Source: Pontixanthobacter sp. CEM42
GTDB lineage: Bacteria; Pseudomonadota; Alphaproteobacteria; Sphingomonadales; Sphingomonadaceae
NCBI RefSeq assembly: GCF_017812015.1
Contig: NZ_JADQTN010000001.1
Coordinates: 970,501 to 1,034,500 of the forward strand
Direction of reading: 5' to 3'
Length of the DNA: 64,000 bases
Shown piece after piece: positions 42,778 through 60,335 of the stretch (position 1 is the first letter of the stretch; each line of letters starts with the position of its first letter). Below the pieces are notes generated by a model. It did no database searches. It was not told the origin of the DNA and saw nothing but the letters and a program-made list of their open reading frames with translations. The translations under genes were made by a program, and so were the position numbers.

Positions 42778-44697
42778 TTACAGCATACACATACGTCGTT
42801 GGTAATTGCTGCGGACCGTGAACTCATCATCTTTGATCGTCCAGAACGCCTTTCCGGCTGAGCTTTCTGCATATTGGCGTGACCAAGCCAGATGCGCATC
42901 GTCGTAACGGCGGCGACATCGGGCGGTTAGGTGCCCTTCACTGTCGAAGACGAGAGTAACGCCGTCAATCGCCAGCGGCCCAAACCGGGATGACAGCCCG
43001 TCCAACGGTTCGCGAAGCAACTCTATCGATGTTCCGAACTGAGTCATTCCTGATGGGCCTGGTCTCGCGAAACTGCGAAGCGAGATCAGCGTGATCTTCG
43101 AATTCTTCGCATCCTTGCCAAAAATCGCATCCAGCCAGTGCGCCGCGCGGAGCTCTTCCACCACTTCCCGGATCTGTTCGGTCGCCGGACCCAGTGCTAG
43201 CGGCTTACCCGGACTTGAACGGAAACGCGTTTCACCGAAACTCAGCGCGCTCAGAGTAAGCTTTTCGCTCGGCTCAATCTCTACTTCGGCAACAAGCGAT
43301 TCCTCAGAGTAATATTCGCTGCTCGGCGCGAAGATGCCACTTTCGCGGAACGCGTCGATCCAAGCTCTACGGACACCGCTATCGTCGTTTGGCACCAGTT
43401 CACGATCAGCCGCGAGAACACTTTGCAGGACGTCAAAGAATTCGATGCCAACCGGCGGGGAATAGTCCAACGCGCGAATGAGCATCATCTGGAACATCTG
43501 CGCGGTCTTCCGCACCTGGCGGCTCATTGCCTTCAGCAACGACTCCGGCAAGTTCCCTTCAGGCAACATTCCTGTGCCATTGCTCGCAAGGCTAATGACG
43601 TTCGCTATCCGGCCTTTCGCCACGTTTAGAAACGCACGATAAATAGCCTGTACAAGCACTTCGCTCCGTCCATGCGGATCAGCAGGCGCGGTGTCATATG
43701 TGTCAGTGCCCACAATATCGCGAACGGTCGGTCCATGGCCCGCAGTTTCGGCAAAACTACGCGCGAGCGTGTTGAGCATGTTTGACCCGGATATCTCTCC
43801 CTTTTCATTACGCAACTCACCAATCACCAGATCCGGATAGGAAAAGCGCTGCAACACCGCAACAATATCACAAAACGCCTCGTGAAAAGCGGCAACGTCC
43901 ATATTGACCGGTAGCATCAAGTTTGGCCGAACACTGTCGAGCAGCGCGTGGCAGAGTTCGTGTACCACGACATCGTGTGACAGCCCGGTAAAGACAATTG
44001 ACCCCTGCGAATAGCCATGTGCATCGCTGCGGCTCTCATAGAGGCCGAAATTGAGTGTATTTACCCGGCGATCATACCATGCCTGCGCTTCCATGCTGGA
44101 CCACGGATTGAGCGTCAGTACTCCCGGGCGGCCGCCATCTGTCCGGTCGAGGCCCGTGATGATCTCCCGTCCGAGCGCTCGTTCGAAATTGCTCTTCACG
44201 GTAGTCACCACGCCAAAGACCATCTGAGCTACGAATTTAGGTTCCGCAAACGATGGTGGGTACCCGCCATCGACCAGAACATGCCGGTTCTCGAAGTCGA
44301 TTGAGGCAAAACCGCGTTGCAGATTACGGAAGGTCTCAACATGTGCGCCCTGCTCTTCATTCTCAGGAGTTTTGAGCCAATCGCTATAAGTACTCAGTTC
44401 GTCACCGCTGTCTGGTGGATCAACCTGATCTGACATCCAAGCGCTATAGGGTGAATGGAGTTGCAATCTGCTCGCGCGGAGCATCACACAATCGCCTGGC
44501 TCCCCTTCACCGCTTCCTAACCGTGCATAATCCAACGTTTCGAAAGCGAGTTCCAACGGGACTATTCCGCCATCTCGCATTGCATCACCAGGCGCACTAG
44601 CGAAGATCGAGAATCGCCGCAGACCGGTATCATTTACTTCCGGAGGCAGACTATCGGCGGTCTCGCCGATAGCGCGCGGTGAGATAACAATGCTCAT
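42778..44697 (-). CDS. Predicted gluzincin zinc metallopeptidase (HELCH-x22-E)
   Basis: A 639-residue protein with no signal peptide. The zinc site is clear: H246-E-L-C-H250 in VVVHELCHALLDSVRP and Glu273 in FHEAFCDIVAVLQ, a thermolysin-like H-E-x-x-H...E layout. The N-terminal 200 residues and the part after residue 430 match no family I know. It is the last gene of the four-gene minus-strand cluster and overlaps the caspase-fusion gene by four bases (ATGA), so the two are translationally coupled. Cytoplasmic location and substrate are unknown. A processing or execution protease partner of the caspase-like protein is the simplest reading. Confidence 0.8.
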   Translation of the reverse strand: MSIVISPRAIGETADSLPPEVNDTGLRRFSIFASAPGDAMRDGGIVPLELAFETLDYARLGSGEGEPGDCVMLRASRLQLHSPYSAWMSDQVDPPDSGDELSTYSDWLKTPENEEQGAHVETFRNLQRGFASIDFENRHVLVDGGYPPSFAEPKFVAQMVFGVVTTVKSNFERALGREIITGLDRTDGGRPGVLTLNPWSSMEAQAWYDRRVNTLNFGLYESRSDAHGYSQGSIVFTGLSHDVVVHELCHALLDSVRPNLMLPVNMDVAAFHEAFCDIVAVLQRFSYPDLVIGELRNEKGEISGSNMLNTLARSFAETAGHGPTVRDIVGTDTYDTAPADPHGRSEVLVQAIYRAFLNVAKGRIANVISLASNGTGMLPEGNLPESLLKAMSRQVRKTAQMFQMMLIRALDYSPPVGIEFFDVLQSVLAADRELVPNDDSGVRRAWIDAFRESGIFAPSSEYYSEESLVAEVEIEPSEKLTLSALSFGETRFRSSPGKPLALGPATEQIREVVEELRAAHWLDAIFGKDAKNSKITLISLRSFARPGPSGMTQFGTSIELLREPLDGLSSRFGPLAIDGVTLVFDSEGHLTARCRRRYDDAHLAWSRQYAESSAGKAFWTIKDDEFTVRSNYQRRMCML

Positions 44698-47183
44698 ACT
44701 AACGGCTCGAAAATGCCGCCGCTCCGAAGATGAGCTGGTCCTTCCAGATCAGGAATCTGCTTGCCACCCGCCATTTCCGTTCTGACGGCTTCTATCAGTT
44801 GTTGCGCTGACATAGTTTGCCCTGCACCCTTGAGGATCCGCGTTGCCGCCTTGGTAAAGTCTCCCATACCACCGCTTTCATATGCAAACTTATCAGGCTC
44901 GCAGGCGACGAATGTCAGGTCGGTCAATTGTTCATTATACGTCGCACCAGTCGAGGCCCGCTTTATGCCTTTGGCGGCTAGCTGCGCCAACGCTGCACCT
45001 TCTTGTGCATGCGTGAGCGGTGCAAAGCGCACGCGCTGGCCCGGTGGTGAGGCCATGCGACTGGACCGTCCCGAAGAACAAAAGTCATGGAATCGGATGA
45101 CACGCACGCCCGCAGGCACCGCAAGCAATTGTGCCCATTCATCATCGATAATCAGACCGCCGCGATCAGCATCGATCCCTATCAACGCCTCATCATGCAT
45201 GTCTGCGCGCTCGTCGTCACGGAGTTCATCGCCATCCTGATCGCGTATTTGGGTTCCATGCGAAGAAATCTGCAAGGCGATGACATCGCCGGGACGCGCC
45301 GCTCCGGTCAATCGGCGGATTTCGTCGCGCATCCGATCGGCGGTACAGTCGGCTGCAACGCTGGCTTGGAAACCTACTGCTTCGAATACCCGCTTCCATT
45401 CTTCTGCATCATTGATGCAACCGTGCAGCAACGGCTGTCCGCGGAACGCATTATTGCCGATGCACAGCGCTATCTTCTTCCGTCCAGCGGGTGTTGCTGG
45501 TTGCAGAACTGCGCCGCCGCCAGACGCGTCGGGTGGCGGAGGTGGAAGCGCAGGACCGGCAAGAGGTGCAGAAGGAGAAGATAACGCACCGCCCGGTACG
45601 AAATCGGCGTGTAGATGATACGGAATGCCATAGAAGCTCGGTGGCCGGACTGGCTCGGGCGGTGCGGCGCGAGAGCGTTCGGTCGGGAAGCCTGCGGGCA
45701 GCGGTAGATCGTCAGATAGATCCAGCACACGCCTCATCACCGATTCCATTGTCGCTGGATCATTGTCGAACCCGCCATGGGTTGGGGAGCACGAACGGCT
45801 TCTAGGAGAACCGGCTCCATCGACAGTCGGTGACCACACTACTTCCTTCATGTACTTGCGGAAAATCGCAGTATCCTCCCGACTTTCTTGGAGTCCGGAA
45901 ATTTGAGGGTCTTTCCCTTCCTCAAATGCGTTTCGGACAAGGTAGAGGAGTGATTTGCGATAAACCCCGCCGACATTGTCGGCCAGTTCTGCCTTGCGTG
46001 TCATCGTGTACAGCGTGACTTGCGGTTTGCGAGTATCAAGTACGTCCACCAGCGTCTTTTCAAAATCAGTCTGATTCAGCGCGGGCGCCAAGAGGTGAAG
46101 CTGGTCAAACTTCACGCCATTTGCCGACTTTAGACGCGGCAGGAAATGCGCATGGAAGATCGCACCGGCACTGTGGCCGACCGCCACCGCACGCAATGTC
46201 TTATTGCCAGACTCATCGCTATCGACTTGGCGGAGCAACTTGCGGGTAAACAGTTCAGCACCCCCGCCCCTGCTGGCACACCGCTGCGCATTGCGCTTCA
46301 TTTCGCTCCACAGGACACGGCCGATCTTTCGTGTGGTTTTCTCGACTATTCTATCGGTCCAGTCAGTGATCCCGCGTGCTTGGGCCTGAACGCGGCGCTC
46401 GCCAGCAATCACATGCCACAAGGCATCAAGCGCGCCGGTCTCCCATACGAAGTAGAGCGGATAAACACCGTTATCGAGCCACCATCTGTGATAGTCCCAA
46501 GCGCTGGACAGACCGACCTCTTCACTGTTGAGCCCGCCATGGGCGTGCATCATCAGTGTCCGGTTCCCTTCAACGCAGTTTTTAACGATGCCATCAACTA
46601 CGCGATCGAGATCGCTCTCCGTCATCCGCATCATGCCGCTATCAGATAGCTGGCCGTGGTTCATGTTGATCACATGGGGTTGGAGTTTTTCGAGCTGCTC
46701 AGGGCTTCCCGTGAATGCAGGCGGAAGCGTGTTTACCCTCGATGAGCGCTTGACCGGGCGAGTTACAATAACCGGTAAGGGCGCAACGGCATTGCGGGTG
46801 GCAGACTGGCCAGTACTCGCCAGATCACACCATTCCTTCAGCGTATCGCGCAGGTCTTCTTTCGGCTCAGCCAAGCTGTGCATTTCTCCGCTCGTTCCGA
46901 GACGAAAAGCAACCTCGGCCTCGATGAACTTGGCCAGCCTGGATTTCTTTGGATCGAGACCCTCTACGCAAACCGCAATCTGAAAGAGCCGTTCCCCTTT
47001 CCCCTTTCCTTCTTTCAGCCTGATGCAGCCTGGCTCAACACCGTCGGGGCCGATGACAAGGTTAGCCGTAGGATCGCCGCTCGTGGTGCGCGCGCTCGCC
47101 TCTGCCAAAGTGCGAGCAAACTCCTGCGTCTGATTGCCGAATTGGCGATAGACGAACTCCAATTGAGTAATGTCCTGAGTCAT
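44694..47183 (-). CDS. Fusion of a GHSAG alpha/beta-hydrolase-like domain and a caspase-like (peptidase C14) domain
   Basis: An 829-residue cytoplasmic protein. The N-terminal half (about residues 150-400) has an alpha/beta-hydrolase look: HAHGGLNSEEVGLSS, then Ser338 in AVAVGHSAGAIFHAHF and the strand FDQLHLLAPALN. A Pro-rich linker (PPPPPDASGGG) near residue 555 separates it from the C-terminal caspase fold: KKIALCIGNNAF, GCINDAEEWKRVFEAVGF, the dyad His642 in LQISSHGTQIRDQDGDE and Cys702 in FHDFCSSGRSSR. Metacaspases cleave after Arg or Lys and often need calcium. It lies 43 bases after the large membrane-protein gene and overlaps the metallopeptidase gene. Confidence 0.85.
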   Translation of the reverse strand: MTQDITQLEFVYRQFGNQTQEFARTLAEASARTTSGDPTANLVIGPDGVEPGCIRLKEGKGKGERLFQIAVCVEGLDPKKSRLAKFIEAEVAFRLGTSGEMHSLAEPKEDLRDTLKEWCDLASTGQSATRNAVAPLPVIVTRPVKRSSRVNTLPPAFTGSPEQLEKLQPHVINMNHGQLSDSGMMRMTESDLDRVVDGIVKNCVEGNRTLMMHAHGGLNSEEVGLSSAWDYHRWWLDNGVYPLYFVWETGALDALWHVIAGERRVQAQARGITDWTDRIVEKTTRKIGRVLWSEMKRNAQRCASRGGGAELFTRKLLRQVDSDESGNKTLRAVAVGHSAGAIFHAHFLPRLKSANGVKFDQLHLLAPALNQTDFEKTLVDVLDTRKPQVTLYTMTRKAELADNVGGVYRKSLLYLVRNAFEEGKDPQISGLQESREDTAIFRKYMKEVVWSPTVDGAGSPRSRSCSPTHGGFDNDPATMESVMRRVLDLSDDLPLPAGFPTERSRAAPPEPVRPPSFYGIPYHLHADFVPGGALSSPSAPLAGPALPPPPPDASGGGAVLQPATPAGRKKIALCIGNNAFRGQPLLHGCINDAEEWKRVFEAVGFQASVAADCTADRMRDEIRRLTGAARPGDVIALQISSHGTQIRDQDGDELRDDERADMHDEALIGIDADRGGLIIDDEWAQLLAVPAGVRVIRFHDFCSSGRSSRMASPPGQRVRFAPLTHAQEGAALAQLAAKGIKRASTGATYNEQLTDLTFVACEPDKFAYESGGMGDFTKAATRILKGAGQTMSAQQLIEAVRTEMAGGKQIPDLEGPAHLRSGGIFEPLV

Positions 47184-47226
47184 TCTGCTTCTCCTGCGTT
47201 CGGAAACTTATGATGCCATTGCGCAC

Positions 47227-50200
47227 TCATGAGGGGGCCACACTGCGCGATTTGCTCGCCTGTGAGGCAAATACCGGGATAGCTGCGGCGATGGCCGGGA
47301 TCAGGGATATAACCGACCCGACCGTACCCTGATCGAGGAAAGCGAGCGCACCTGCCGCCACGACCACGAACACCAGCATCGGCAGGCGCAATTGCGACCA
47401 TGGCGATGCTTGCTCCACCATCTGACGGTACGCGTGGAATGTCTCCGGATTCTCATTTGTCCGCACCCAGAAAGCAAAGCTTTCATTCATAAGCATCGGG
47501 TTCGGATCACGCTTGATCAACTCACGGTTAATCAGGCTGTTTATAGTCCTAAAATCGGTCGTTTTGACGAAACGGTTGTTCGCCAGATGATACATTAGGA
47601 TCTGCTCTTCACGGGTCGAGCCAATCCACTTCATTTGGTAATAGTCGCTGAGCACATTCGCGAGATATTCGATCACCTGCTCGTGTAATGGTTGATCATC
47701 TGCGGCGTAGGTGCGGTAGGCCAAAGCAGGATTATGCCCATGCTTGGGTGCGCCGGGTTCATCACCTGATTTAACCTCCAGTTCTTCAAGAAAAGACTCG
47801 CGCTGCTTGCGTACGAGATCGTTGGGGATCGCCTCGAATTCCGTCCTGATCAGTTCCCTGAGCCACCGCGGGTCCGGCGTATCCTTATCGCTGGCTCCCG
47901 GCACACTCGACTGCCTCAATTCCCAATAGGAATCCCAACGGACAGTAACAAACTGCGCGAGCAGCAACGCCCAGTGACGCGCCTCATCGATGCTATCGAT
48001 GTCCTGCTGCAAGGTGTCACCGACATGCGTAAGTCGTTCCAACTCACGGACCTGTTGCAAGCGCTCGATCGGTAACATTTCGGAAAAGAAATGAACCTGA
48101 ACGCCTTCGACACCGAGCAGCCGCTCCAGGAAATCAAGCGCATCGCGCCGAAGGCTTGGCACTCCGATAATCCGCATCAAGCCGACTACAATCCAAGGGC
48201 GGTTGCGTGTCCGGATTGATGCCAGCTGAGATTCTGCATCGTCAACGCGCGCTAGGTCCACGTAATTATATCCGCCGATCCCCTCCAACGTGCCCTTGAG
48301 TTGTTCGAACTTATCGAACGGGTAGTTCACATAGAGCCGTAGAGGCGGTGGCCCACCAGGACGAACATCGGACATCTTGTCGATATCTGATCGATCGAAT
48401 TCGGGCCGAGGATGGAGCGAGCGGAATTCGAACAGGCCCATCCCGAAAAGAGCGCGACACAAATAGGCATATCCTAGGAGCCCCATTAGGCCGAAGACGA
48501 TAAACGGCGCGACTTGCAGAGACACACGCAGGGCAGAATCGAAAACCTTCTGCGTCGCAGCAGCTCGTTTATCGATGTCCGTTCCCGTGCCGACTCCGTC
48601 AATTTTGTCGATGTCTGCAATTCGGCCCTCGAGCACCTCCGCCGTGATATCTCGTTTCTCGCTAGGTCCGCCGTGCGCGGAGTATCCGGTGTCGGACTCG
48701 CTGAGTAAGGCGTTCACCCGGGGCTGATCCAGCGCCAGGATTGCGCGTCCGACAGCGCGTTGAAGCAATTGGCGGGAGTTGGTCGCTTCCGGAACGAGGG
48801 CCCGTGCAGTCGCATCACCTTCACCCTGAGCAGGCGTTACGCCGAAATGGGAATGTCTACTGATCCGCTTGAGCGCTCTGTCGATGCCGCCGGAACCAAG
48901 GCCGGAGGCAAACCGCACGCACTCTGCGCTGGCAGCGCTTGCGCCTGGCATTTCGCCTGCGATCCTGCTGCATTGATCCTCAAAGACATCTTTGCGACGT
49001 TCGGTTACTTGCGAAACGGCAACAACGTCCTGCGCAAGAAACTCTTCGAAAATAACGGTGGAAGCCGTGCGATATGCGAGAATTGACGGGATCACTGTGA
49101 CCAGTGTGACAATAAGCCCCTGAGTTACGGTCTGTCGGAAGATTGACGGTTTCAGGCCCACATTTTTGGAGAACCACCATTTCATTGGCTTGCTCACGCG
49201 TGCGAGACCAGCACGTTCGAACCATGCGGAATTAAGCAACGCGATCAACAATCCGGCGCCGACAAGGGTAAGCACCAGATAGAGAATCTTACTGTGCGTT
49301 TGAGCGAATCCAAGTGAAGAGAAAGCAAGGGCAGAGAATATCAAATACCCTGCGATCGAAACCATCGTGAGGCGGCGTAAAATCCGCTCCTTCCGCGCAG
49401 CGCGCCGCTCAGCTTCAGGATCGCTTCCAACTTCCGCCGCAACGCAATCTTCGCTACCCTGCCCATCTGCCAGGTCATCTTTCTGCGACTCCGGATTTTG
49501 CGGAGTGTTGGCAAGTGCCAACTGAATACCCAACGTCGCGCAGATCATCGCAAAGATTTGCCAGAAGGACGAATCGCCGCGGAGCAACGTGACCTGGAGC
49601 AGCGAGACGAAAACGAGCAAGATGCAGACCGCCAGCACATCCAGCTGGCCGATACGGCCAACTCGACCGTTCATCTTTGCAAATTGTATCCGGCGCACGT
49701 CAGGCCAGAATATCGCAACCAATCGTTGCCGATCGATCATCCCAAGGGCGATGGCAAATACGGCGGTTACAAAGCCAATCAACAGGATCAGACCGACAGA
49801 CAACGCGGCAGGTGTGATAGCCAATCGCTCCGCCATTTCAGCCGGGTACCATACGACAATGGCCCAGTTACCGCGGCATGATGGCGCCGCGCTCAGCCGA
49901 ACTTCACGCCCGGTGTACCGCATGGTGAAAGCCTTGCTTGCAGCGGGCGACATCACCTCTCTGGTTTCGTTGCTCACCTGTTGCGGTTTTGAGCAAGTAC
50001 GCATGGTCTCATCGAGCACGCGGCGCAGGAGTGGGACATCATCCACCCGTTCTCCCCAGCGTTCCGAGCCAGCTCGGCTTGGATCACTATGCTGCAGAAC
50101 TTCAAGCGTCTCCGTATCGAGCACGGCGAAGGAGTACCCTTCGGGCAATGGTACATCACGCGAGAAAAATGGCTGGCGGTTGGCCAAAACATACTGGACG

Positions 50201-51939
50201 TCAGGGTTCGAGGTGCCGGGCGATGGCCGCCATAGGCCTGGGTCAAACGATCCCCTTCTTCGCCAGTCGTTCTCCGCACCATCCCCGTCGCCGCCGGTGG
50301 CCACGGTCGAGCCGACTTGTAGCATGGAAATGAGAGTGGAGTTTCCCTCCACCAGAGACGGAACTACCGAGGCTACGTAATTTTCCACCCCACGATCGCC
50401 ACCTGGTATTTCGAGGAATGTTCGCTCGGCAGCTCGGCGGAAATAGCGGCGACTTGCCACCCCTTTGCTGGGCGGGTTCGTGATCAGATAGTTGAACAAG
50501 GGTGTCCAGCACGCCTCAGGCTCACAGTTCTCTGGGGCGGGTCTCAGGACATTCGTCGCATCTCCATAAAGATACAGCAATGCACCTTGATCGGAGACCG
50601 CAAAAACGTTCTCCATGCCCTTTGAAACTTGCACATCGCGCAGCGTTTTGGGTTCACCACCGCTGTCGATAGTGCCCGAACTGCCGTTCTTTACCAGGTC
50701 AATCAGCGTCGAGTTCGTCTCGCTGATCTCACGATCAGAATCCGCCGCCAACTGCGTTGCTAGCCCTTGGGCATCACTGTCAAAATTCTGGCGTAACTCC
50801 AACCACTGCGCCCATACGATCGAGATGACGAAAGTAGTCGCAATAGCGAGCGGTACTGAAGCAATTATCGCCGCGACATCGGGCCAGTTCATGCTCGACC
50901 TTTTGTCGATCAGCCAGAGTTTGCCAATGGGGACAAGTAAGAGCAATAATACGATCGCGGCTACAAAGCTCGCCCTCGTCAAAGGTGAAAGGCTTGAGAT
51001 GTCGGACATCAAACCCCGATCACGAACAATCCCCACCAGATAACATTCACGGGGTGGGCAAACCTGACCTTCTGACTTGAAACCCGTTCGTCCTACCAAC
51101 AACGCTCGGCGGATGTTGAGGGGAATTGCATGGACCACGACCTCTGCGCCGCCCATGTTGACCTTGACTGGCCCGCCTAGCGACAAAGTCTCAGGTTGAA
51201 TCTCACGTTGCTTTCCTTTGGCGTCTTCGTCGATCAGGATAGTCTGAGGTTGCGGATCCCAACCGATCGGTTCGCCGGATTCCAAAATCGACTGCAAATT
51301 TGCCGGCCATGCCGCGTCCCCGCGTAGCGAGATCGCAAAGTCCCAGTCGCGCGTGATGATCGCAATATCGGTAACTGCCAATGTGTCAGCGTTGCCGCTG
51401 AGCCGTTCATTGATCTTTTCAAACTGATCTTTGCCGTCTGCATCGGCATCGTTGGGATTGCGTGAGGGCCCGTCCGCCTCAGTTGACAAGACAGTCCGAC
51501 GATCCCGCGCCTGTTGTCCTTCGAAGGTCAGTTTTACGTTCTTGAGAGAGCACTTTTGTGCGTCAGCAGACGTCGATTTCTTAGCTTTGGTGGCTCCTGC
51601 TTCGGCATCCTCCCCGATTTGGGACACAGCCGCTACTACCGTTCCCTCGACCCGTTCGTCACTAAGTTCAGTCGTCTCCGTTGTCGCACTTTGCTGCGTA
51701 ACTTCTGAGCATGCTTTGGCGCGGGATACATCGCTGATATCGCGCAGCGCGTGCTCGATGCGCTTCAATTCCCCGTATGCAACATCTCTGCGGACCGATG
51801 TCTCACGATCTCGCGCCTCGACTACAATTAGGAAGAATGCGAGGCCGAGAAATGTCATGACGGTCAGAAATGCACCGAGCACACGTAAAGCGCGTGGCAT
51901 GGGCCCGCCCTTTGCACTGCTCTGCTTCTTTTCCGTCAT
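47227..51939 (-). CDS. Very large multi-pass membrane protein, putative sensor/platform
   Basis: A 1570-residue protein I cannot place in a named family. A first helix near residues 17-41 is followed by an extracytoplasmic domain (to about 315) and two helices (about 320-380). A second extracytoplasmic domain of some 330 residues has Cys pairs and Cache-like positioning. A cluster of six or seven helices follows (about 715-980), then another extracytoplasmic loop and a helix near 1170. The cytosolic part (about 1200-1510) starts LRLYVNYPFDKFEQLKGTLE and ends in a winged-helix-like LINRELIKRDPNPMLMNESF. Two C-terminal helices close the protein. The start has no competitor. A sensor passing signals to the coupled hydrolase/caspase is an inference. 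Confidence 0.8.
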   Translation of the reverse strand: MTEKKQSSAKGGPMPRALRVLGAFLTVMTFLGLAFFLIVVEARDRETSVRRDVAYGELKRIEHALRDISDVSRAKACSEVTQQSATTETTELSDERVEGTVVAAVSQIGEDAEAGATKAKKSTSADAQKCSLKNVKLTFEGQQARDRRTVLSTEADGPSRNPNDADADGKDQFEKINERLSGNADTLAVTDIAIITRDWDFAISLRGDAAWPANLQSILESGEPIGWDPQPQTILIDEDAKGKQREIQPETLSLGGPVKVNMGGAEVVVHAIPLNIRRALLVGRTGFKSEGQVCPPRECYLVGIVRDRGLMSDISSLSPLTRASFVAAIVLLLLLVPIGKLWLIDKRSSMNWPDVAAIIASVPLAIATTFVISIVWAQWLELRQNFDSDAQGLATQLAADSDREISETNSTLIDLVKNGSSGTIDSGGEPKTLRDVQVSKGMENVFAVSDQGALLYLYGDATNVLRPAPENCEPEACWTPLFNYLITNPPSKGVASRRYFRRAAERTFLEIPGGDRGVENYVASVVPSLVEGNSTLISMLQVGSTVATGGDGDGAENDWRRRGSFDPGLWRPSPGTSNPDVQYVLANRQPFFSRDVPLPEGYSFAVLDTETLEVLQHSDPSRAGSERWGERVDDVPLLRRVLDETMRTCSKPQQVSNETREVMSPAASKAFTMRYTGREVRLSAAPSCRGNWAIVVWYPAEMAERLAITPAALSVGLILLIGFVTAVFAIALGMIDRQRLVAIFWPDVRRIQFAKMNGRVGRIGQLDVLAVCILLVFVSLLQVTLLRGDSSFWQIFAMICATLGIQLALANTPQNPESQKDDLADGQGSEDCVAAEVGSDPEAERRAARKERILRRLTMVSIAGYLIFSALAFSSLGFAQTHSKILYLVLTLVGAGLLIALLNSAWFERAGLARVSKPMKWWFSKNVGLKPSIFRQTVTQGLIVTLVTVIPSILAYRTASTVIFEEFLAQDVVAVSQVTERRKDVFEDQCSRIAGEMPGASAASAECVRFASGLGSGGIDRALKRISRHSHFGVTPAQGEGDATARALVPEATNSRQLLQRAVGRAILALDQPRVNALLSESDTGYSAHGGPSEKRDITAEVLEGRIADIDKIDGVGTGTDIDKRAAATQKVFDSALRVSLQVAPFIVFGLMGLLGYAYLCRALFGMGLFEFRSLHPRPEFDRSDIDKMSDVRPGGPPPLRLYVNYPFDKFEQLKGTLEGIGGYNYVDLARVDDAESQLASIRTRNRPWIVVGLMRIIGVPSLRRDALDFLERLLGVEGVQVHFFSEMLPIERLQQVRELERLTHVGDTLQQDIDSIDEARHWALLLAQFVTVRWDSYWELRQSSVPGASDKDTPDPRWLRELIRTEFEAIPNDLVRKQRESFLEELEVKSGDEPGAPKHGHNPALAYRTYAADDQPLHEQVIEYLANVLSDYYQMKWIGSTREEQILMYHLANNRFVKTTDFRTINSLINRELIKRDPNPMLMNESFAFWVRTNENPETFHAYRQMVEQASPWSQLRLPMLVFVVVAAGALAFLDQGTVGSVISLIPAIAAAIPVFASQASKSRSVAPS

Positions 51940-52040
51940 GCTTAGCCCCCGGATGGTTCTCCCATTGCGACCCGAAGCCGGCTCATGTCAGCCAGCACAC
52001 TGTTTGAGCGTGATTTTGCTCACAGTACCTTTTTCATGGA

Positions 52041-55000
52041 TTAGCCGTCGGCTCCCTCTAGCTTCTCAAACATCTCTGGCAGCAGAGTATTCCGATACAA
52101 TGCTTCGAAATCCTCCGATGTGATTGCGTTGCCTTGCCCCCTGCGGCTGAGCAATCGGAAGAACGAACCCCATTGCTTCTCCGTCAGGCTATCGAGCGCA
52201 TCCTTCTCTTTCAAAAGGGCCATGAATTGCGCCTCTGGGATCAGTCCGCCATCATGTTGCACGGCGAGTTCTTCCAGCGCATGCACATACTCTGCCAGTT
52301 GCTTCTCATCGACCATTCCATTTTGATCATAGATCATCGTCCGCTTCTTCGGGCGACGCTTGGCCATTTCCGACATCGGGATGCCTTTGCCTAGAAGAAG
52401 GTTCTTGAGCCCGCCAAACTTAAAGGTCGAACCTATCGCAAGGTACAGCGCACGCAGGCCGCTAGCTTCGAATATCTTCCAAGCCTTGTGGTTCTCTGAG
52501 AACCCAACGCGCGAAATGTCTTTGCCGAGATTGAACGGTAGAACATGTGCTTCCATATCCGTCAGGCGCAGCTTCACACCCTTTCTGTCCTCATCACCTC
52601 TGTATTTCTTCAATCGATTGACTTCATCCTGGTTCAGCATCCAGCCACTGGCGAAGTCCGGGTATGCTGGCGAACGATAACCTGGCCACGGATATTTCTT
52701 CTCCGACCAAATCGCATTTGCCGCCTCGATAAATTCTTTGCGCGATACGCCATCAGGATCGTCCGCTAGAACATCGCGGCCAAATATGCGGTTGTTATTC
52801 TCCGTATCAGCCAGAACAACTTCGTCAGTCAGATCGACGATATATACCGTTCCGGCGTGCTCTAATCGGATCATCCGGTTTGCGACGTCATCGGCAAAAT
52901 GCTCAGGTTTCCAAGCATCGCCAAGGCCCATGTCGCGAATATTCTGATCGCCCCACTCGATAATACCGTTGGCCTCAAGCGGATGCTCCTCGGGATTGTC
53001 GCGCGCATTGGTCCCCGCATATTCATAGGTGTTGACCGTCTGACGGTTCTCTAACCATTCCCTGAGTTCGGGGCAGTGAAGGTAGAGCAGCTTCTCTTTG
53101 TCGACTGCTTCCACCACATTAATTGCCGTCCAACTGACCTCATCGGGGCGCCATTTCTCGGTAAGATACGGGTTCTTCCGAATGCGACTTGTCGCCTCCT
53201 GAACAAAGGTCTGGAAACCTTCGTTGGTGATCGCCAGTCCTTCCGGTCGGTGCTCGTTCAGAGTCAAACCGATGACCGCGTCCAGCGTGTCGATACCGCC
53301 GGGATAAAGCGCCTCGAGCTTTCCAATTGTTTCCTGCGACGCACTACTCGACGGGTCTAGAAACAAGTGCTCCCACTTCTCGCTCGGCGGAATGTTGTGT
53401 GCCTTCTGGTAATCGGTCCAAGAAGGTGTGCCGCGCTGCCTATCCTTCCGGATTTCCTGCTCGAGCATGTCCATCACGCCCTCTTCAGTCGCCATGTTTT
53501 TGAAAAAGTCGGCTGTATTTCCTGCAACCGGAGCACCAAGCCGTGTGTGCATCATGTAATAATACACCGCACCCAGACCTTTTTTGCGGATGAACTCATG
53601 CCCATCCAACTCGCGAAGATTCATCATGTTTTCTTTGTGGGTGTTGTCGCCAACCGGCTCACCGATTGGCGGGCACTTTAACTCATCAACCCAAATCTGA
53701 TGCCCGAAGCGATAGGCTTTGGAGAAAAAGTTGCCCTTGATCTCTGGCTTGTCCTTATCGACTTTCCCTGCAGCGATGCCGTGGGCAATCGGGTCTCTTC
53801 CCTGCTCGGGACGATAAATCTTCTTCTCGAAATGCGGTAGTTTACGCTCCGCGCGGCCAAACAAATTTGCGTTCAGACCATTCACCACGGCCTCATTCGC
53901 GAACAGCGTATGCGTCCAAGTACCAGTGTGAATTTTGACGTAGGTCATTGTCACGACACGGCGGGCAATCTGGAAAATTTGATTGTCAGACCAGTGACCG
54001 TAACGCTCCTTCAGAATGCCTGCCGCCCAATTGTGGTGACGGGCGTAAAGTGTGTGCTCCGCTTCGAGTGGAGCGGTCATGTTACGGCCAAAGCCCGTCA
54101 CAATCTGACCAATTTTTTGCCCGTCCTTTCCGCTTTCGACGTCCCTGACCGGCAGATACAGGCCGCCATTGCCCTCTTTGTCCATGCCCTCGAGGAATAT
54201 CTTGCCGCCCGGCACTTGCGTACCATCGTCGAACGACCGAATTGCGGCGAGCGTTTCAATGTCGCTGCCATAGATGTGGCTCATGTCCCACCAGACGGTG
54301 GTGCCATGCATTCCCTCGCCATCATCACGCAAAGCGTTCGGAGCATCTGAGCGGCTCCATTTATGCGTTACACCTAACTCAGCCAGCTCGCTGTCTGGAT
54401 CGATCTCAATCGCATGTTTCAACGCATTGTCAGGTGCTGTCTGTGCGACATCATGGACCAACTGCTGCAAATGCGCCGCAGCGTGAAAGCTTGCGGTTAA
54501 TGCCTCCTTGGTTTCACCATTACGATAACCGAATACTTTGGCGACCTCCGCTTCACTCGGCAGGTTCGGATTGTTCGACTGGTCCTGCGGGCGGTAATTG
54601 ACTGGCATTCCGTGATCGACGAACTCTTGTCCGACGCGGCCTTCTCCCGGGCCAAATCGCGTGTCTAGATGCGCACCATCGGGCGTGAAGCCCGAATCCG
54701 CCCATTTTGGTGTTTGCCCCTTTTTGAGTTGCCCAACGATATCATGGCGCTCACCATCTGGATCACGCTCTCTTTTCGCCATCCAGTTTCGTCCGTCTGA
54801 CAATGCTGCAAGCTGTAATATGCCGATGCGATGCTGGGTCCAACGCCCGGGATTGCCCGGTGTAGCCCCTCTGTTGGCCAAACTACCGATTGGCCCCAAC
54901 GCAAGCGAGACCAACGAGTCTTTGAAGTTGCGAAGATGGTCACGCAAAGACTTGCTAGGAACAATATCTCCCGGCCGCTGAAAATCGTTGCAGAGCACCC

Positions 55001-55409
55001 AGCTTGCCGGGTTCGTCTTATATGCCTCTGCCGGATCAAGTGTCAGATATTCTTTGGTTAGACCGTTGAGGCGAAGCGTGGCCGCACCATTTTTCGCGCT
55101 GATCCGGTCTGCCTTGATTTGATCCTGCCAAGATTTCGCGAATTTATGGTCAGGTTCTTTGTCGATAGCGCGTTGAAGCCAATCGGCAGAATCGCCAAAC
55201 TCTCCGGTGTTGCGCGAAGCATGTGCTGCAAGAGCATAATCCGCTGCGGTTGCAGTCCCGTGCTCGTGCCGCTCGTTATAGCGATCGAGGGCGGCGGAGA
55301 AATTCCCGGCGTTGATCTGATCCAACGGATCAGCAGAATTAAGGTCAGGTTGTTGATTGTGAGCTTGAGAGAACGGGCAGCCCCTCGTTTCAATATTCAC
55401 GTCCGACAT
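52041..55409 (-). CDS. Animal-type haem peroxidase (peroxidase/cyclooxygenase superfamily) with TPR-like start and EF-hand-like end
   Basis: A 1122-residue protein without signal peptide. Residues about 30-95 look like one or two TPR hairpins. The catalytic core shows His319 in LQQLVHDVAQTAP (candidate distal haem ligand), VWWDMSHIYGSD, the signature LYARHHNWAAGILKERYG, KIHTGTWTHTLFANEAV, and the proximal His570 in FSKAYRFGHQIWVDEL (the F-R-x-G-H motif). The KIHT segment is strikingly like plant alpha-dioxygenases, so a fatty-acid oxygenase is possible. Residues about 1030-1110 resemble a degenerate EF-hand pair (YDQNGMVDEKQLAEYV). GGAGGT precedes the ATG. First gene of the cluster. Confidence 0.88.
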   Translation of the reverse strand: MSDVNIETRGCPFSQAHNQQPDLNSADPLDQINAGNFSAALDRYNERHEHGTATAADYALAAHASRNTGEFGDSADWLQRAIDKEPDHKFAKSWQDQIKADRISAKNGAATLRLNGLTKEYLTLDPAEAYKTNPASWVLCNDFQRPGDIVPSKSLRDHLRNFKDSLVSLALGPIGSLANRGATPGNPGRWTQHRIGILQLAALSDGRNWMAKRERDPDGERHDIVGQLKKGQTPKWADSGFTPDGAHLDTRFGPGEGRVGQEFVDHGMPVNYRPQDQSNNPNLPSEAEVAKVFGYRNGETKEALTASFHAAAHLQQLVHDVAQTAPDNALKHAIEIDPDSELAELGVTHKWSRSDAPNALRDDGEGMHGTTVWWDMSHIYGSDIETLAAIRSFDDGTQVPGGKIFLEGMDKEGNGGLYLPVRDVESGKDGQKIGQIVTGFGRNMTAPLEAEHTLYARHHNWAAGILKERYGHWSDNQIFQIARRVVTMTYVKIHTGTWTHTLFANEAVVNGLNANLFGRAERKLPHFEKKIYRPEQGRDPIAHGIAAGKVDKDKPEIKGNFFSKAYRFGHQIWVDELKCPPIGEPVGDNTHKENMMNLRELDGHEFIRKKGLGAVYYYMMHTRLGAPVAGNTADFFKNMATEEGVMDMLEQEIRKDRQRGTPSWTDYQKAHNIPPSEKWEHLFLDPSSSASQETIGKLEALYPGGIDTLDAVIGLTLNEHRPEGLAITNEGFQTFVQEATSRIRKNPYLTEKWRPDEVSWTAINVVEAVDKEKLLYLHCPELREWLENRQTVNTYEYAGTNARDNPEEHPLEANGIIEWGDQNIRDMGLGDAWKPEHFADDVANRMIRLEHAGTVYIVDLTDEVVLADTENNNRIFGRDVLADDPDGVSRKEFIEAANAIWSEKKYPWPGYRSPAYPDFASGWMLNQDEVNRLKKYRGDEDRKGVKLRLTDMEAHVLPFNLGKDISRVGFSENHKAWKIFEASGLRALYLAIGSTFKFGGLKNLLLGKGIPMSEMAKRRPKKRTMIYDQNGMVDEKQLAEYVHALEELAVQHDGGLIPEAQFMALLKEKDALDSLTEKQWGSFFRLLSRRGQGNAITSEDFEALYRNTLLPEMFEKLEGADG

Positions 55410-55734
55410 CTGATGACCACCTCCGCTGTGTTTCGCTGCGACCAGAGTAGAGCTTCTTGCGCAACTCTTTCACGACGCGATTGTAACACAAAACTACAGC
55501 AATCCAATCTGTGCTTCATTTTCTACTGAGTAAAGCGGATTCTTATCAATTCCCCCAAATACATCGATGAACCCATGCGGTGTTAACAGTTCGTGATCGC
55601 CGATTAATGTTACTTATTAATCTCAGGCGCTAATCACAGCGAAGATTCCAATCATATTCAACATCGCTTGATTTATATATCTAGGTTATCTGTGTTACTT
55701 CGAATATTCATTTCTGTGTTGGGAGGCTTCATAA
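55410..55734. promoter_or_regulatory. Divergent control region of the peroxidase cluster and the catalase-like gene
   Basis: A 325-base AT-rich gap between two divergent genes, so both promoters should be here. It holds the inverted repeat GATTAAT-N7-ATTAATC at 55602-55622, a plausible dimeric-regulator site near its middle. No RNA gene or small coding frame is evident. No regulator gene is present nearby. Confidence 0.55.
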
Positions 55735-56910
55735 ATGCTGCGTGCAGTACATCGATTGCTCGAGTTTGGGTTGCAGCTAGAACGCCGTTTCGAGCCCTTC
55801 TTCCGGCCGGTCCTAGACCGTTTGCTGCGGATGCCGCTGACTCGGTTCTTCAACTGGACAATTAACATTACGCGCAGCCGGGATGTTCCAGGTATCGCTG
55901 AAGAGCGTGTAGCGGATGATGAAGAGCAAAGCCTCGATACGATCATCGCGGAAATGTCTCGGCATCTGGATATCGATTTCACGCCCGGCAATTATGAGAG
56001 AGCCGGAAACACCAAAACGCACGGTGTTGTGCGTGCCGTTTTCGAAGTTAACCCAAACCTGCCGGAAAATTTACGGCGCGGGATCTTTGCGGAAGAGCGT
56101 AACTTTCCAGCTTGGCTCCGTTTTTCCAATCCTGGCCCGCATGTGACACCGGATATCGAAGATGTTGGCTTCGGGAGTATCGGGGTGAAGCTGATGGATG
56201 TCCCCGGCGAAAAGCTGATGGATGACGAGAAATTTACACAGGACTTCACCGCGATCTCGACGATCACTTTCGTCACACCGGACACGCGCGAAAATGCGAG
56301 ACTGCAATATTGGAGCCGTCGCCATCTGCCGATCTGGTATTTCATCAATCTTCGGCACTCGCACATCCGCGATTTCATCATGCAGGCCCTGTGGAACAGG
56401 ACCCTCTCAAGCCCGTTTGCTACCGAATATTTCAGCTGTGTTCCCTATCTCCTGGGGCCGGATCAAGCGATGCAGTACAGCTTCCATCCGTTGAGCGACG
56501 TGCCGACCAATATTCCAGGCCTACCCGCCAATCCTCCGGAGAATTACCTGCGCGACAATATGGCCAAGGCGCTGAGCGAGGGGGATGTGAAGTTCGAGAT
56601 GCGTGTGATTTTGCAAAAGGATCCGTTCCTAATGCCGGTCGAACAGAATGCGGTGCTGTGGGACGAGCGTTTGTCACCCCGCATCCCGGTCGCAACTATC
56701 ACTATTCCGAAGCAAGAATTCCAGTCAGAGGCACAGTTTAAATTTGCGCGTCAACTAACGATCAATCCGTGGCATTGCCTGCCCGAGCACAGACCGCTTG
56801 GCAACCAAAGCCGCGCGCGCAAACGCATGTATCATACAATGTCGCGCTATCGGCAAATGAAGAACAGTGAAACGCATATTGAGCCAACCGGAAGTGAGAT
56901 CTTCGAATAG
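55735..56910 (+). CDS. Catalase-like haem protein
   Basis: A 391-residue protein of the catalase superfamily, shorter than true catalases (about 480 or more). The distal His96 lies in NTKTHGVVRAVFEV, followed by FPAWLRFSNPGPH and FGSIGVKLMDVPG. The proximal ligand is Tyr366 in R362-K-R-M-Y366 (RARKRMYHTMSRYR), the R-x-x-x-Y motif. Such small members include fatty-acid hydroperoxide-metabolising enzymes (allene oxide synthase type) as well as weak catalases or peroxidases, so the activity is open. GGGAGG precedes the ATG. It has no signal peptide and is divergent from the haem peroxidase cluster. Confidence 0.88.
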   Translation: MLRAVHRLLEFGLQLERRFEPFFRPVLDRLLRMPLTRFFNWTINITRSRDVPGIAEERVADDEEQSLDTIIAEMSRHLDIDFTPGNYERAGNTKTHGVVRAVFEVNPNLPENLRRGIFAEERNFPAWLRFSNPGPHVTPDIEDVGFGSIGVKLMDVPGEKLMDDEKFTQDFTAISTITFVTPDTRENARLQYWSRRHLPIWYFINLRHSHIRDFIMQALWNRTLSSPFATEYFSCVPYLLGPDQAMQYSFHPLSDVPTNIPGLPANPPENYLRDNMAKALSEGDVKFEMRVILQKDPFLMPVEQNAVLWDERLSPRIPVATITIPKQEFQSEAQFKFARQLTINPWHCLPEHRPLGNQSRARKRMYHTMSRYRQMKNSETHIEPTGSEIFE

Positions 56911-56938
56911 AGCGGTTGCTAGCATCCAGTACGGATAA

Positions 56939-58351
56939 TTACTTCAGAATCTCGCGCAATCCATTGAGCCCAGGCAGGAAAAAATACGCACCGCCCCGCA
57001 CATTTACAAATTGAGGAATTTGATCGATCCTCCGCGGGACGCGGTCCTCATCAAAATAGCTGAACTGATCGCAGTCATGCCCCCTCGCCTCCCTGTCCCG
57101 GTCGCCAAGAATCGGATCTTGTTCACCCGCGAGCCCGGCAAAAGCAGGACTCGCAATCCAAGCGCCCTGCACAAATTCAAATTGGCGAGCGAGACTCGCA
57201 TTGAGGCAGAGGAAATGCAGCCCCGCCTCCATTTGCTCGGCACCGGGTTGCATTGCCTGTTCGTACGGCATTGTTTTGCCGTAGGGACGCCCCCGGCGTA
57301 AAATCCGGTGAAACCTACTCGACGCGACAGCATCATGCTTCGCGGTTCCTCCAAGTCCGAGAGATCCGATAAGGTTGCCGAGAAAGTCGATATTACCACC
57401 GGGATGATCGCCAAGCCTCGGATTTACGCGCCGTATGTGGCTCCCGATTGGGCAGACCACCCCGTCAACATCGCCACTGAAGTCAAAGGCGTTGCGGCCT
57501 CGTGAGCCTTCCATTTTGGCCAATCCAGATAGTGGTTGCCCATCGATGGTTCGCCCCACCATTGTCTCAGCGAGCGTTTTCGCTTCTTCCGGTCCCGTCT
57601 CGTCGCGAAGCCATTGCCAAAAGCCCGTTACATCCTGCGCAAGCTGGCGGTAGACGAGGTAGCTACCATTGCGGCCAATATCCCCATCGCGCGGATAGTC
57701 GGCAACGAACCCATATTCATTGCTATGGCCGAGTAACACTTCGCCAGCGGCCATACGATTGCGATAGTCGCGATCTTTCGCTCCTCCCGGCTGCAGGGCG
57801 CCATCCCAGTCCATTTTAGGTTGTGAAATGCCATCCTGAAAGCCGAATGGTTCCCGCCCGTCCATATCGCTGCTGGGCTGGCACCGCAGAAGAATGCAAC
57901 CATTTGCCTGTATTTCGGCTCGTAGCGTCTCTTCGATCGCCTGAATTTTCTCAGGCCGCGCAAATGCGAGCAGCAGAACATGCGGCTCCTGATCCCCAGC
58001 GCCCCAATCCCAATGTTCCGGAGCATTGGTACCTACGTCACCCAAGCGCCTTGAACGGCTCTCGTTATGCACCATTCCATCGACGAATTCGGGCGAAAAA
58101 TGTTCAAGTGCATCCGCGTTCAGACCTAGCTGAGCAAGCCCGGCCGCCGTGAACGCAATTTGCAGAGCTTGGTTCTGTTTGCTTTCGCGGCAATCCTGAA
58201 CGCTCGTAAAATGAAGCGAGCTCAACCATTGCTTGGCCGCATTGCTGTCTTCGATGCGCAGCAAAATATATCGCGCAGCTTTGAGCGAACCGTAGCCGGT
58301 ACGGACGAGCCCTTGAATATCGGCTGCTTCGTCTTTCGCGCGCTCTGTCAT
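56939..58351 (-). CDS. DyP-type haem peroxidase
   Basis: A 470-residue dye-decolourising-type peroxidase. The catalytic GxxDG is FGFQDGISQP, the proximal haem His is in VCPIGSHIRRVNPR, and the distal Arg region is FHRILRRGRPYG. There is no Tat signal and no encapsulin-targeting tail that I can see, so it is cytoplasmic. The start overlaps the stop of the 423-residue gene by four bases, so the two are coupled. It converges on the catalase-like gene with a 28-base gap. The substrate is unknown; the pairing with a membrane-associated protein suggests a lipid or membrane-near oxidant. Confidence 0.93.
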   Translation of the reverse strand: MTERAKDEAADIQGLVRTGYGSLKAARYILLRIEDSNAAKQWLSSLHFTSVQDCRESKQNQALQIAFTAAGLAQLGLNADALEHFSPEFVDGMVHNESRSRRLGDVGTNAPEHWDWGAGDQEPHVLLLAFARPEKIQAIEETLRAEIQANGCILLRCQPSSDMDGREPFGFQDGISQPKMDWDGALQPGGAKDRDYRNRMAAGEVLLGHSNEYGFVADYPRDGDIGRNGSYLVYRQLAQDVTGFWQWLRDETGPEEAKTLAETMVGRTIDGQPLSGLAKMEGSRGRNAFDFSGDVDGVVCPIGSHIRRVNPRLGDHPGGNIDFLGNLIGSLGLGGTAKHDAVASSRFHRILRRGRPYGKTMPYEQAMQPGAEQMEAGLHFLCLNASLARQFEFVQGAWIASPAFAGLAGEQDPILGDRDREARGHDCDQFSYFDEDRVPRRIDQIPQFVNVRGGAYFFLPGLNGLREILK

Positions 58352-59619
58352 ATTTCAGCGATCCAGCGCCGCAAGGCGGTGCCCTTGAGCGGCTTTTCCA
58401 GTCCAGCGCGGATGCGCGCATTCCGCGCCAGATCGTAAGTCGATAGATTGGGAAAGGCTTTGTACCAGACTTGAGTCGGTACCTGATGATGCGCGAGATA
58501 ACGCTTGAAATCTTCCTCGTGCCGCGCGCCTTCGAACAAGGCCCAGCGGGTTCTCGGATATCCCAAAGCGCTTGTGAAAGACAGATTCAGGCCAAAGGCG
58601 ACTTTGTTGATGAAGTCGTCATTGTAAGCTTCGCGACTGCCATCATAAACGCTCGCAAAGAAGAGCCTTCTATTGCTGTCCAGAAAGACCCAATTGGCGA
58701 AATGGATGGTGTTCACCCGCGCCAAACGGCCCTTGCTGTAAATATGGCGCGCGCCCCAATTAATGACCCACAACGCCACTTTGCTAAACATGAAATAAAA
58801 TGGCCCGGGCTTGCGCGACCCGACGGCGCTGTAAGGGTTGGTAATGTCATGGTCCTCCAGCGCCATCAGCGCATTATTGCGCTCCCGATCAATTTTGTGT
58901 GCAAGGACGGGGTCACTCGTCTCCCGCAGTCGAAGGATAATCAGGAAGGGAAGTAATAGGACAAGCAAGATGGGCGCAAGCAGCAAAGCCGCGACTGGGA
59001 GTGATAGGAAGCTCAGGCAATTTGCCACTCTCTCGGTTATGCTTGGCCTAGGGATAGGCGTGAGAGGAACGCTTCGACCGACCTCTCGCAATCGCTGGTT
59101 AAGTTCACCCAAGCTCGCTTCTCTGTTTGCGAGTTGCGTCTTGAGCAGTGCGTGGTGCAAGGCTGCTTCCTCGCGAATTTGTACCATGCTGCGACCGGGC
59201 CAATTGCGATAGCTCGCATCCGGTTTGAGGCGATGCTCGCTCATCCACTGGCCGATCGGGATTTCAGGATCAAAGCCGATACAATTGCAAAAAAGGGATG
59301 CGAGGCCCTTTGACGCTGACCGCTCCATATCAGTGATAAGACGATCGGCAGAGCCATCACATACCGCAAGGAAGATCAACCAGTCCGGCTCATGAACCGG
59401 ATAGGATCGCGCATGTTCAATCCTGTCCCCAAGCGAAGGATCCTCAATCATCACAAAGCGCGCAGTATGCAGCGCATCGAACTTCCCAAAGGGCAGTACG
59501 CTATTGTCGGGATCAGCTAGGCCGATATCCGCATTCATCGTTGCCAAACGCTCTCGCAATTGCTCGCGATGCTGCGGCGCGATTGGCGCGCCTACGATCA
59601 AGAACTGCTGCCTAGGCAC
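58348..59619 (-). CDS. Membrane-associated protein with an internal duplication, coupled to DyP peroxidase
   Basis: A 423-residue protein of unknown function. One strong hydrophobic stretch (residues 203-231, LSLPVAALLLAPILLVLLLP) divides two similar halves. Residues 50-116 start LHTARFVMIED and contain LIFLAVCDGSADRLITDME; residues 305-353 start IHFANWVFLDS and contain LFFASVYDGSREAYNDDF. The shared pattern (H-x-A-x-x-V...L-x-F...DGS...D) looks like a duplicated ferredoxin-like (alpha-beta barrel) unit, the fold class also used by DyP. The duplication is my reading, not a known annotation. It lies 25 bases after the 145-residue gene. Confidence 0.72.
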   Translation of the reverse strand: MPRQQFLIVGAPIAPQHREQLRERLATMNADIGLADPDNSVLPFGKFDALHTARFVMIEDPSLGDRIEHARSYPVHEPDWLIFLAVCDGSADRLITDMERSASKGLASLFCNCIGFDPEIPIGQWMSEHRLKPDASYRNWPGRSMVQIREEAALHHALLKTQLANREASLGELNQRLREVGRSVPLTPIPRPSITERVANCLSFLSLPVAALLLAPILLVLLLPFLIILRLRETSDPVLAHKIDRERNNALMALEDHDITNPYSAVGSRKPGPFYFMFSKVALWVINWGARHIYSKGRLARVNTIHFANWVFLDSNRRLFFASVYDGSREAYNDDFINKVAFGLNLSFTSALGYPRTRWALFEGARHEEDFKRYLAHHQVPTQVWYKAFPNLSTYDLARNARIRAGLEKPLKGTALRRWIAEI

Positions 59620-59644
59620 CGATTAAGTGTCGCGCATCGTTGAT

Positions 59645-60082
59645 CTATTGATCAAATTTGAGCGCAAAATCGATCAAGCGCGTGTCATTCCAATAGACTT
59701 TGCCCAGATAGAAGTTCGGAGCGATCAAACGGATCTCATCGCGCACTCTGGAGGCCAGAATTGACGTATCCGAGTAGTCAAGAACGATGCATTCTTTCTG
59801 ATCAAGCCAGCTCGGCTCTTTGTATACTTTCGCGACAATAGCGCGGATCCCAAATGGCAAAATCTCGTTGCGGAGCAGGCCCTTCTCGGCATCGAATATT
59901 TTTCCCTGCCATGCAAAGATGCTAATAATTTTAGCAATCTCGTCGCTGAAGCTTGTGCCAGGGGCGATGATCGCAGTACCGTCAGCCTCGCCATCCGGTA
60001 TCGGCCCTGCCTCGCTCTCCTTGAACAAAGTATCGAGTTCGTCCTGAGACATTTTCAGAAGGTCGTGAGTGTCATACGCCAT
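59645..60082 (-). CDS. Small conserved-looking protein at the head of the DyP cluster
   Basis: A 145-residue cytoplasmic protein preceded by TAGGAGGAAGATTATAAC, a strong ribosome-binding site. The sequence has an acidic N-terminus (KMSQDELDTLFKESEAGPIP) and a compact C-terminal domain with KECIVLDYSDTSILASRVRD and APNFYLGKVYWNDTRLIDFA. It has no Cys pair or metal motif. I do not recognise a function, although similar proteins occur near haem peroxidases as far as I recall. It is the first gene of a three-gene transcript with the 423-residue protein and DyP. Confidence 0.7.
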   Translation of the reverse strand: MAYDTHDLLKMSQDELDTLFKESEAGPIPDGEADGTAIIAPGTSFSDEIAKIISIFAWQGKIFDAEKGLLRNEILPFGIRAIVAKVYKEPSWLDQKECIVLDYSDTSILASRVRDEIRLIAPNFYLGKVYWNDTRLIDFALKFDQ

Positions 60083-60335
60083 GTTATAATCTTCCTCCTA
60101 GGTAGATCATATCATAGACAAATAAATTGTTGAAGAGTGTTGCACAGGCATCGAATAATAAATGAATAGACTCATTAGTTCGGACATGCCTTTCTAATAG
60201 AGTTAATATTGCAACCCCAGCGCACGCTCAGCACTTGCGATGCGCAACTTTGAGGCTGGCCTTTCCCCTGATCCCTCTTGTGAGTCCGAGCTGAAAACTG
60301 CAGGGAGAGCTCTAAACCAGCACTGACACCGGAAC

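Follow-up and report, generated by a model that had tools for sequence, protein, structure and literature searches.

Cyclooxygenases and the dioxygenases related to them retain Tyr385 and His388 (PMC13049297), and an account of the peroxidase–cyclooxygenase superfamily describes its bacterial cyclooxygenases as known only from putative sequences (PMC4420034). In caspase–nuclease (canu) systems and nuclease–protease pairs, pro-nucleases of the metallo-β-lactamase (MBL) fold are activated by trypsin-like or caspase proteases (PMC12799240). Here we analyse a block of eight genes, A–H, in a 64 000-nucleotide stretch of Pontixanthobacter sp. CEM42 DNA (contig NZ_JADQTN010000001.1, positions 970 501–1 034 500; hereafter the window, whose numbering is used throughout). 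Over 17 kb (42778–60082) the block encodes a zinc metallopeptidase (A), a caspase fusion (B), a large membrane protein (C), a member of the peroxidase–cyclooxygenase superfamily (D), a catalase-fold protein (E), a DyP-type peroxidase (F) and two families without a name (G and H). An earlier note, made from the sequence alone, had proposed these genes as one candidate new system. All eight open reading frames were present at their coordinates with frames open, E on the plus strand and the others on the minus strand, and the gaps and overlaps it gave were confirmed: A and B overlap by 4 bases, B and C are separated by 43 bases and C and D by 101, F and G overlap by 4 bases, and 25 bases lie between G and H. 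What recurs elsewhere is not the whole block but its parts, with conserved neighbourhoods for G–F (23 of 23 G-bearing genomes), H-G-F-E (two genomes) and B–A (Kovacikia). A single conserved 17 kb system was rejected, since D-C-B-A was not found again, a close D orthologue stands alone and C is an orphan. Our preferred reading, for which we see about an even chance, is that the 17 kb are a shuffled conflict-type island bringing together two modules of different origin, one of which, the haem module H-G-F-E, would oxidise a lipid or another small molecule. That the haem module is a functional unit is highly probable.

G (58348–59619) has one hydrophobic segment (197–235) and a conserved C-terminal domain, and F (56939–58351) is its constant neighbour. 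A G profile searched against 378 genomes of the phylum gave 23 positives, the genome of the window included, with 24 loci (L150–L173). In all 23 genomes F lay in the same fetched stretch (2.0–4.6 kb) as G, whether fused to it, adjacent or near; at seven of the 24 loci the G match was weak and lay 0.65–1.1 kb from F. A gene following the catalase-like gene in S. fredii (L007), included among the aligned G rows, turned out not to encode a G; it was left in the profile for the 378-genome search and excluded from the profile used in the locus scan. When plasmids were searched by tblastn, the C-terminal domain of G was found inside a DyP protein or adjoining one, and on viral contigs G stood just upstream of an F relative in all four confirmed cases (L232–L235). 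On one of these contigs (L234, 635–6180) the pair is followed by P450 and glutaminase genes, an unusual cargo for a phage, and tail or internal-virion genes lie near G–F in both L234 and L235. At two further loci (L003 and L174) a cyclase-domain protein is encoded directly upstream of a P450-G-F protein, which suggests coupling to cyclic-nucleotide signalling.

H (59645–60082; 145 residues) extends the pair. It occurs with G and F at four places, namely the window, the proteobacterial genomes G293 and G129, and a Streptomyces locus (L058), and is 48–68% identical to its counterparts at three distant loci. In G293 and G129 the genes H-G-F-E run in tandem on one strand with a GMC oxidoreductase beside H, and in G129 hydrolase genes also lie beside the cluster. 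At the Streptomyces locus H and G share one reading frame; F comes next, and a single small gene separates it from a D-like peroxidase. E-G-F occurs without H in L005, L161 and L162. H is rare: a search of 230 genomes of the window's class returned the window's own genome and two weak matches, and in 114 genomes of the class of G129 only G129 was positive. Four H members submitted to Pfam at E-values up to 5 matched no family above cut-off.

In DyP-type peroxidases the GxxDG motif, the proximal His and the distal Arg have functional roles. F retains GFQDG and the proximal-His motif, with D173, H305, R352 and R353 invariant in all four aligned rows, the window included; its profile scores were 25.0 bits for Dyp_perox_C (cut-off 20), 26.2 for DyP_N (below the cut-off of 27.5) and 91.5 for TIGR01413 (below 100.5). 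The predicted structure of H had a pLDDT of 35. That of G was a low-confidence model (pLDDT 48.8) whose N-terminal half weakly resembles ferredoxin-like dimeric barrels: the best Foldseek matches were 4zos and ABM-like dimeric barrels, and IsdI with haem was among the first ten, all at E > 0.001.

E (55735–56910) adds a residue change that tracks with H. In the catalase fold, the distal His and the proximal Tyr have functional roles. An hmmsearch of the Protein Data Bank (PDB) with an E profile matched 3e4w (1.7e-22), catalase (5.4e-13) and coral allene oxide synthase (AOS; 8e-6); single-sequence phmmer with E yielded nothing relevant. The proximal Tyr (Tyr366 in the window) is retained in 25 of 25 E rows with letters at that column. 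The distal-His column, set by alignment with catalases, holds His in 18 of 26 rows, Asn in three, Gln in three, Phe in one and a gap in one. The three Asn rows are those of the window, L181 and L183, that is, of all three loci (window, G129 and G293) with both H and E. Judged by these residues, E is probably not a conventional catalase. The three haem peroxide enzymes announced in the earlier note stand as families (An_peroxidase for D, DyP for F and the catalase fold for E), with the enzyme assignment of E, which has Asn at the distal-His position, unproved. At another locus (L097, 13464–16472) an E domain lies in the same frame as a region that, on visual inspection, resembles LodA.

D (52041–55409; 1122 residues) would perhaps join the haem module here. 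It matches PF03098 (An_peroxidase) with 156.8 bits (cut-off 25; E 1e-45) and has long N- and C-terminal extensions beyond the core. It had been called an animal-type haem peroxidase, which the family match upholds and two other features qualify: the best PDB match is a plant alpha-dioxygenase (4hhr, aligned over residues 270–791), and the catalytic-site Tyr is shifted. In 80 of the 85 aligned D rows Tyr precedes the proximal His by three residues, the arrangement of cyclooxygenase (Tyr385 and His388; PMC13049297); in the window (Y-R-F-G-H) it lies four before, L028, L002 and L076 are the other exceptions, and one row has no letters there. The D of the window thus falls in a small subgroup, and its activity may be that of a peroxidase and not of a dioxygenase. 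For the same reason we do not class it as a plain cyclooxygenase or alpha-dioxygenase. Among the 80 D loci kept, the only close orthologue is in Methylocystis (L028; 41% over residues 6–1117), near genes for a ferritin-like-domain protein with a weak LodA_C match and for a radical SAM protein. At 2.5 kb from this orthologue (L028, 16910–19399) a hydrolase-like domain is fused to an S8 peptidase, a B-like layout with another protease; its hydrolase matches fall just below cut-off and the B profile gives no match. In the D-like peroxidase of the Streptomyces locus (L058, 9608–11467) Arg replaces the distal His (LQFMIRDW), a substitution also present in some mycobacterial rows.

D and E are themselves associated, being fused at 12 of the 80 D loci, adjacent at two (L030 and L060) and 3.4 kb apart at one (L033). 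These fusions bear on an oxylipin-type pathway, one of two readings offered by the earlier note, in which a hydrolase would free a fatty acid, D would oxygenate it, and E and F would rearrange the hydroperoxide, on the model of the cyclooxygenase or lipoxygenase and catalase-related enzymes of corals, plants and fungi. The alpha-dioxygenase match of D, the coral enzyme among the E profile matches, the P450 fusion, and patatin, esterase, hydrolase or oleate-hydratase neighbours all point the same way as the fusions, but the two enzymes actually present in the window fit the scheme poorly, D having its Tyr four rather than three residues before His and E lacking the distal His, and we regard such a pathway as rather unlikely. 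For the narrower proposition that the haem module acts on a lipid or other hydrophobic molecule near the membrane, we would put the chance somewhat short of even.

The second module comprises A and B, with C as a neighbour. A (42778–44697; 639 residues) is a putative zinc metallopeptidase with an HExxH motif (H246, E247 and H250) and E273. HELCH and the downstream Glu, the pattern of an M4-like gluzincin, are invariant in nine of nine aligned rows including the window, and the HELCH metallopeptidase of the earlier note is borne out to this extent. A had no Pfam match and its profile no match in the PDB; in the Pfam scan E, G and H likewise lacked matches at E 0.1, and C had a single match far below cut-off. 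Relatives of A occur in 11 of the 378 genomes, five of them strong besides the window's own. Annotation shows A relatives fused to an S8 peptidase in L015, L016 and L019, and a PF00082 match within the same open frame as the A relative gives such a fusion in G114 and G229; the eight genomes searched for S8 peptidases hold one to four each. The gene after A encodes an MBL-fold protein in L017, L019 and L024 (annotation) and in L174 (Pfam), the next gene at the remaining A loci being without a name or not scored. In L019 the 25 kb surrounding A contain SIR2 and TIR genes; neither is annotated in the corresponding 25 kb of L018. In addition, 28 viral contigs (L204–L231) encode weak A relatives with 24–45% identity in the best segment, and that of L204 scores 22.1 bits for Peptidase_M4, just under the cut-off of 22.4.

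B (44694–47183) joins a hydrolase-like domain (GHSAG, S338) to a metacaspase-like domain (DxCxSG). The caspase half is well matched by Peptidase_C14 (94.6 bits, E 9.6e-27), and its SSHG and DFCSSG align with the His/Cys dyad of metacaspase-1 (chain 4f6p, which has Ala at the Cys position). For the hydrolase half, the Pfam alpha/beta hydrolase score is 13 bits against a cut-off of 25 and GHSAG is kept in four of four rows; of the fusion described in the earlier note, the caspase half is recognised by its profile, and the hydrolase-like half shows the motif and a sub-threshold match. The two domains also occur together in L014, L185 and L186, and on a plasmid of the cyanobacterium Kovacikia an amidase–hydrolase–caspase protein is followed by an A relative. 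In viral contigs the B family was confirmed in 0 of 44 stretches. C (47227–51939) is a multi-pass protein of 1570 residues, as claimed, with 12 hydrophobic segments separated by long stretches and a C-terminal domain for which weak matches were found in G375 and G404.

Members of both modules are found together again at a small number of rhizobial and other alphaproteobacterial loci. A lies 1.3 kb from a G–F fusion in G114 and G229, which belong to one genus and of which G114 includes a P450 in the fusion, 6.9 kb from G–F in R. ruizarguesonis and 8.3 kb from an E–D fusion in Phyllobacterium; in G352 A and G are both present and far apart. With the window's own genome excluded, G was found in three of the five genomes with a strong A match (hypergeometric P 0.0016) and in three of all 10 A genomes (P 0.016), values that ignore kinship, the threshold for 'strong' having been chosen once the hits were known and two of the three genomes being congeners. 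From the 45 plasmid matches to G, 10 records were opened, which are not a random draw. In five of these, R. ruizarguesonis included, G–F lies near CHAT, trypsin-like, S8, nuclease or phospholipase D genes; all five have flanks of at least 10 kb and a protease within 7 kb of G–F. The haem module and A-B-C may act jointly in this cell, though we would not count on it.

The same neighbourhoods recall the other reading of the earlier note, a protease response triggered by stress or phage. In its anti-phage or abortive-infection form, C would sense the invader, the caspase and the zinc peptidase would execute and the haem enzymes would make toxic oxidants. The company kept by A relatives (S8 fusions, MBL-fold genes, SIR2 and TIR genes within about 10 kb), the five rhizobial plasmid loci and the carriage of G–F on phage contigs speak for it, and the protease part of the reading gains from the first of these; C may, to judge by its topology, be a sensor. 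However, the neighbours are assigned roles by annotation only, the ten plasmid loci were selected as stated, and phage carriage fits lysogen cargo equally well. When A–G were compared with the PADLOC-DB 2.0.0 defence models, no model rose above noise and only a caspase model appeared (E 0.026). An anti-phage role for the block is, on balance, doubtful.

The position of the block in the chromosome raises an alternative. A–H lie with an alginate lyase and an autotransporter in a 24.4 kb island (35875–60322) missing in four of four congeners tested. The autotransporter gene (37739–42649) adjoins the alginate lyase gene and contains an internal 262-base repeat (70%). In four congeners an MBL-fold gene (35047–35814 in the window) and mazG (60336–61085) are neighbours 236–246 bases apart; 24.5 kb separate them in the window. 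A 27-base, AT-rich and partly palindromic site, which we take to resemble chromosomal dif sites, stands just before mazG in the congeners and is 96–100% identical in all four. In the window the site (35848–35874, plus strand) instead lies a short distance past the MBL gene and borders the island on its left, and homology on the mazG side resumes at about 60323. The maximum of the cumulative GC skew falls at 36–44 kb, as one expects at a terminus, and because the skew changes sign near the dif-like site the terminus of replication probably lies within the window. An Xer-integrated mobile element with dif-like sites at both ends was considered and rejected, as a search allowing three mismatches matched the window only at 35850. 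D was absent from all 59 other relatives searched. Together with the intact MBL–mazG junction of the congeners, this marks the block as what is, by sequence comparison, a lineage-specific acquisition in accessory DNA. Within it, E and F are convergent and D and E divergent; the 325 bases between D and E (55410–55734, from the coordinates) are a possible shared control region. A sigma-70-like site lies upstream of H (TCAACA-16-TATGAT, 60106–60133, minus strand), but sites of this type are no more frequent than chance would give, with eight in the region and 10.9 in shuffled sequence. Beyond the island, 62415–62981 encodes an Hfq protein carrying two Hfq domains.

A terminus island of this kind could be a mere landing zone, with H-G-F-E, D, C and B–A as separate cargo, each with its own task: the haem genes would detoxify peroxide or xenobiotics, and the others would serve protein turnover. 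The alginate lyase and autotransporter in the same island sit easily with chance neighbourhood, as do the solitary D orthologue, the orphan C and the fact that the whole set was seen at no other locus. The tight gaps and 4-base overlaps inside the clusters do not, nor do the proximity of A to G–F in G114, G229 and R. ruizarguesonis and the Streptomyces D-like peroxidase one small gene from H-G-F; as an account of the whole block, chance neighbourhood seems to us unlikely, if plausible.

Several of our own results weigh against the two-module island as well. Nowhere else did we see both full modules together. The Methylocystis D orthologue has none of A–C or E–H within 10 kb, and the D partners in the D–E fusions have the usual Tyr spacing, unlike the D of the window. 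Around three weak H-like loci (L196–L198) the fetched stretches hold neither G nor F nor E. The other five of the 10 plasmid loci have no annotated protease in their 6–8 kb flanks. A was found at only one (L014) of the six other B-like loci fetched and was missing from the fetched stretch in L022, L026, L185, L186 and L187, two of which have the caspase (the L185 stretch is just 11 kb). C had no full-length relative in 398 genomes or in plasmids, and the pointer to a lipid substrate comes from neighbouring genes only.

With these points on the scale, the shuffled conflict-type island remains our preferred reading, and its mechanism can be sketched as follows, gene order, fusions and residue changes being observed and each further step conjectural. 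In the first module, an oxidase or oxygenase that varies with the locus (a GMC oxidase, a P450, an alpha-dioxygenase-like protein or a D-like peroxidase) would supply peroxide or an oxygenated lipid. F and E, the latter probably not a catalase, would convert this product near the membrane, where G might anchor the haem set, with H as an accessory or binding protein. The second would be a protease–hydrolase set like those that accompany conflict and defence genes: C may sense damage or invasion, and B and A would cut proteins and perhaps lipids. A bolder version, which we think improbable, holds that H-G-F-E with its locus-specific oxidase is the undescribed core of an oxidative effector or lipid-mediator system in which E performs new hydroperoxide chemistry, and that the builders of the island linked it to executioners, namely the caspase and the zinc protease, so that bacteria would have their own equivalent of eicosanoid-type signalling joined to cell-death proteases. 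In any case the block defines a set of four genes, H, G, F and E, that links two unnamed families to a peroxidase, and it provides a natural catalase fold in which Asn takes the place of the distal His at all three loci found with H and E. Should lipid hydroperoxide conversion prove true, it would show how bacteria build oxylipin-like cascades; should defence prove true, haem oxidants would join the list of bacterial effectors.

Set beside described systems, the block shares parts with several. In literature of partial coverage, no described H-G-F-E module or name for the haem set turned up. Membership of the canu systems was rejected, as A–H contain no Lactamase_B match and the island does not take in the MBL gene at 35047. 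There is a likeness to canu and the nuclease–protease pairs (PMC12799240) in the caspase-family protease of the locus and in the A relative followed by an MBL-fold gene in L017, L019, L024 and L174; the difference is that A is a zinc peptidase, not trypsin-like, and that no MBL nuclease is encoded in A–H. The fungal dioxygenase–P450 fusions (PMC13049297) resemble the present set in that haem enzymes are fused or paired with a P450, but here it is DyP with G, not a dioxygenase, that is fused to the P450. D resembles the alpha-dioxygenase branch in its PF03098 match and its alignment to 4hhr, and differs from it in having Tyr-Arg-Phe-Gly-His for Tyr-Arg-Met/Leu-His and in its long terminal extensions. 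E shares its profile matches and proximal Tyr with the catalase superfamily, including catalase-related AOS and proteins of the 3e4w type, whereas in the window and the two other loci with H it has Asn for the distal His. F, finally, keeps the conserved core of DyP-type peroxidases and is set apart from them by its constant pairing or fusion with G, in G114 also with a P450.

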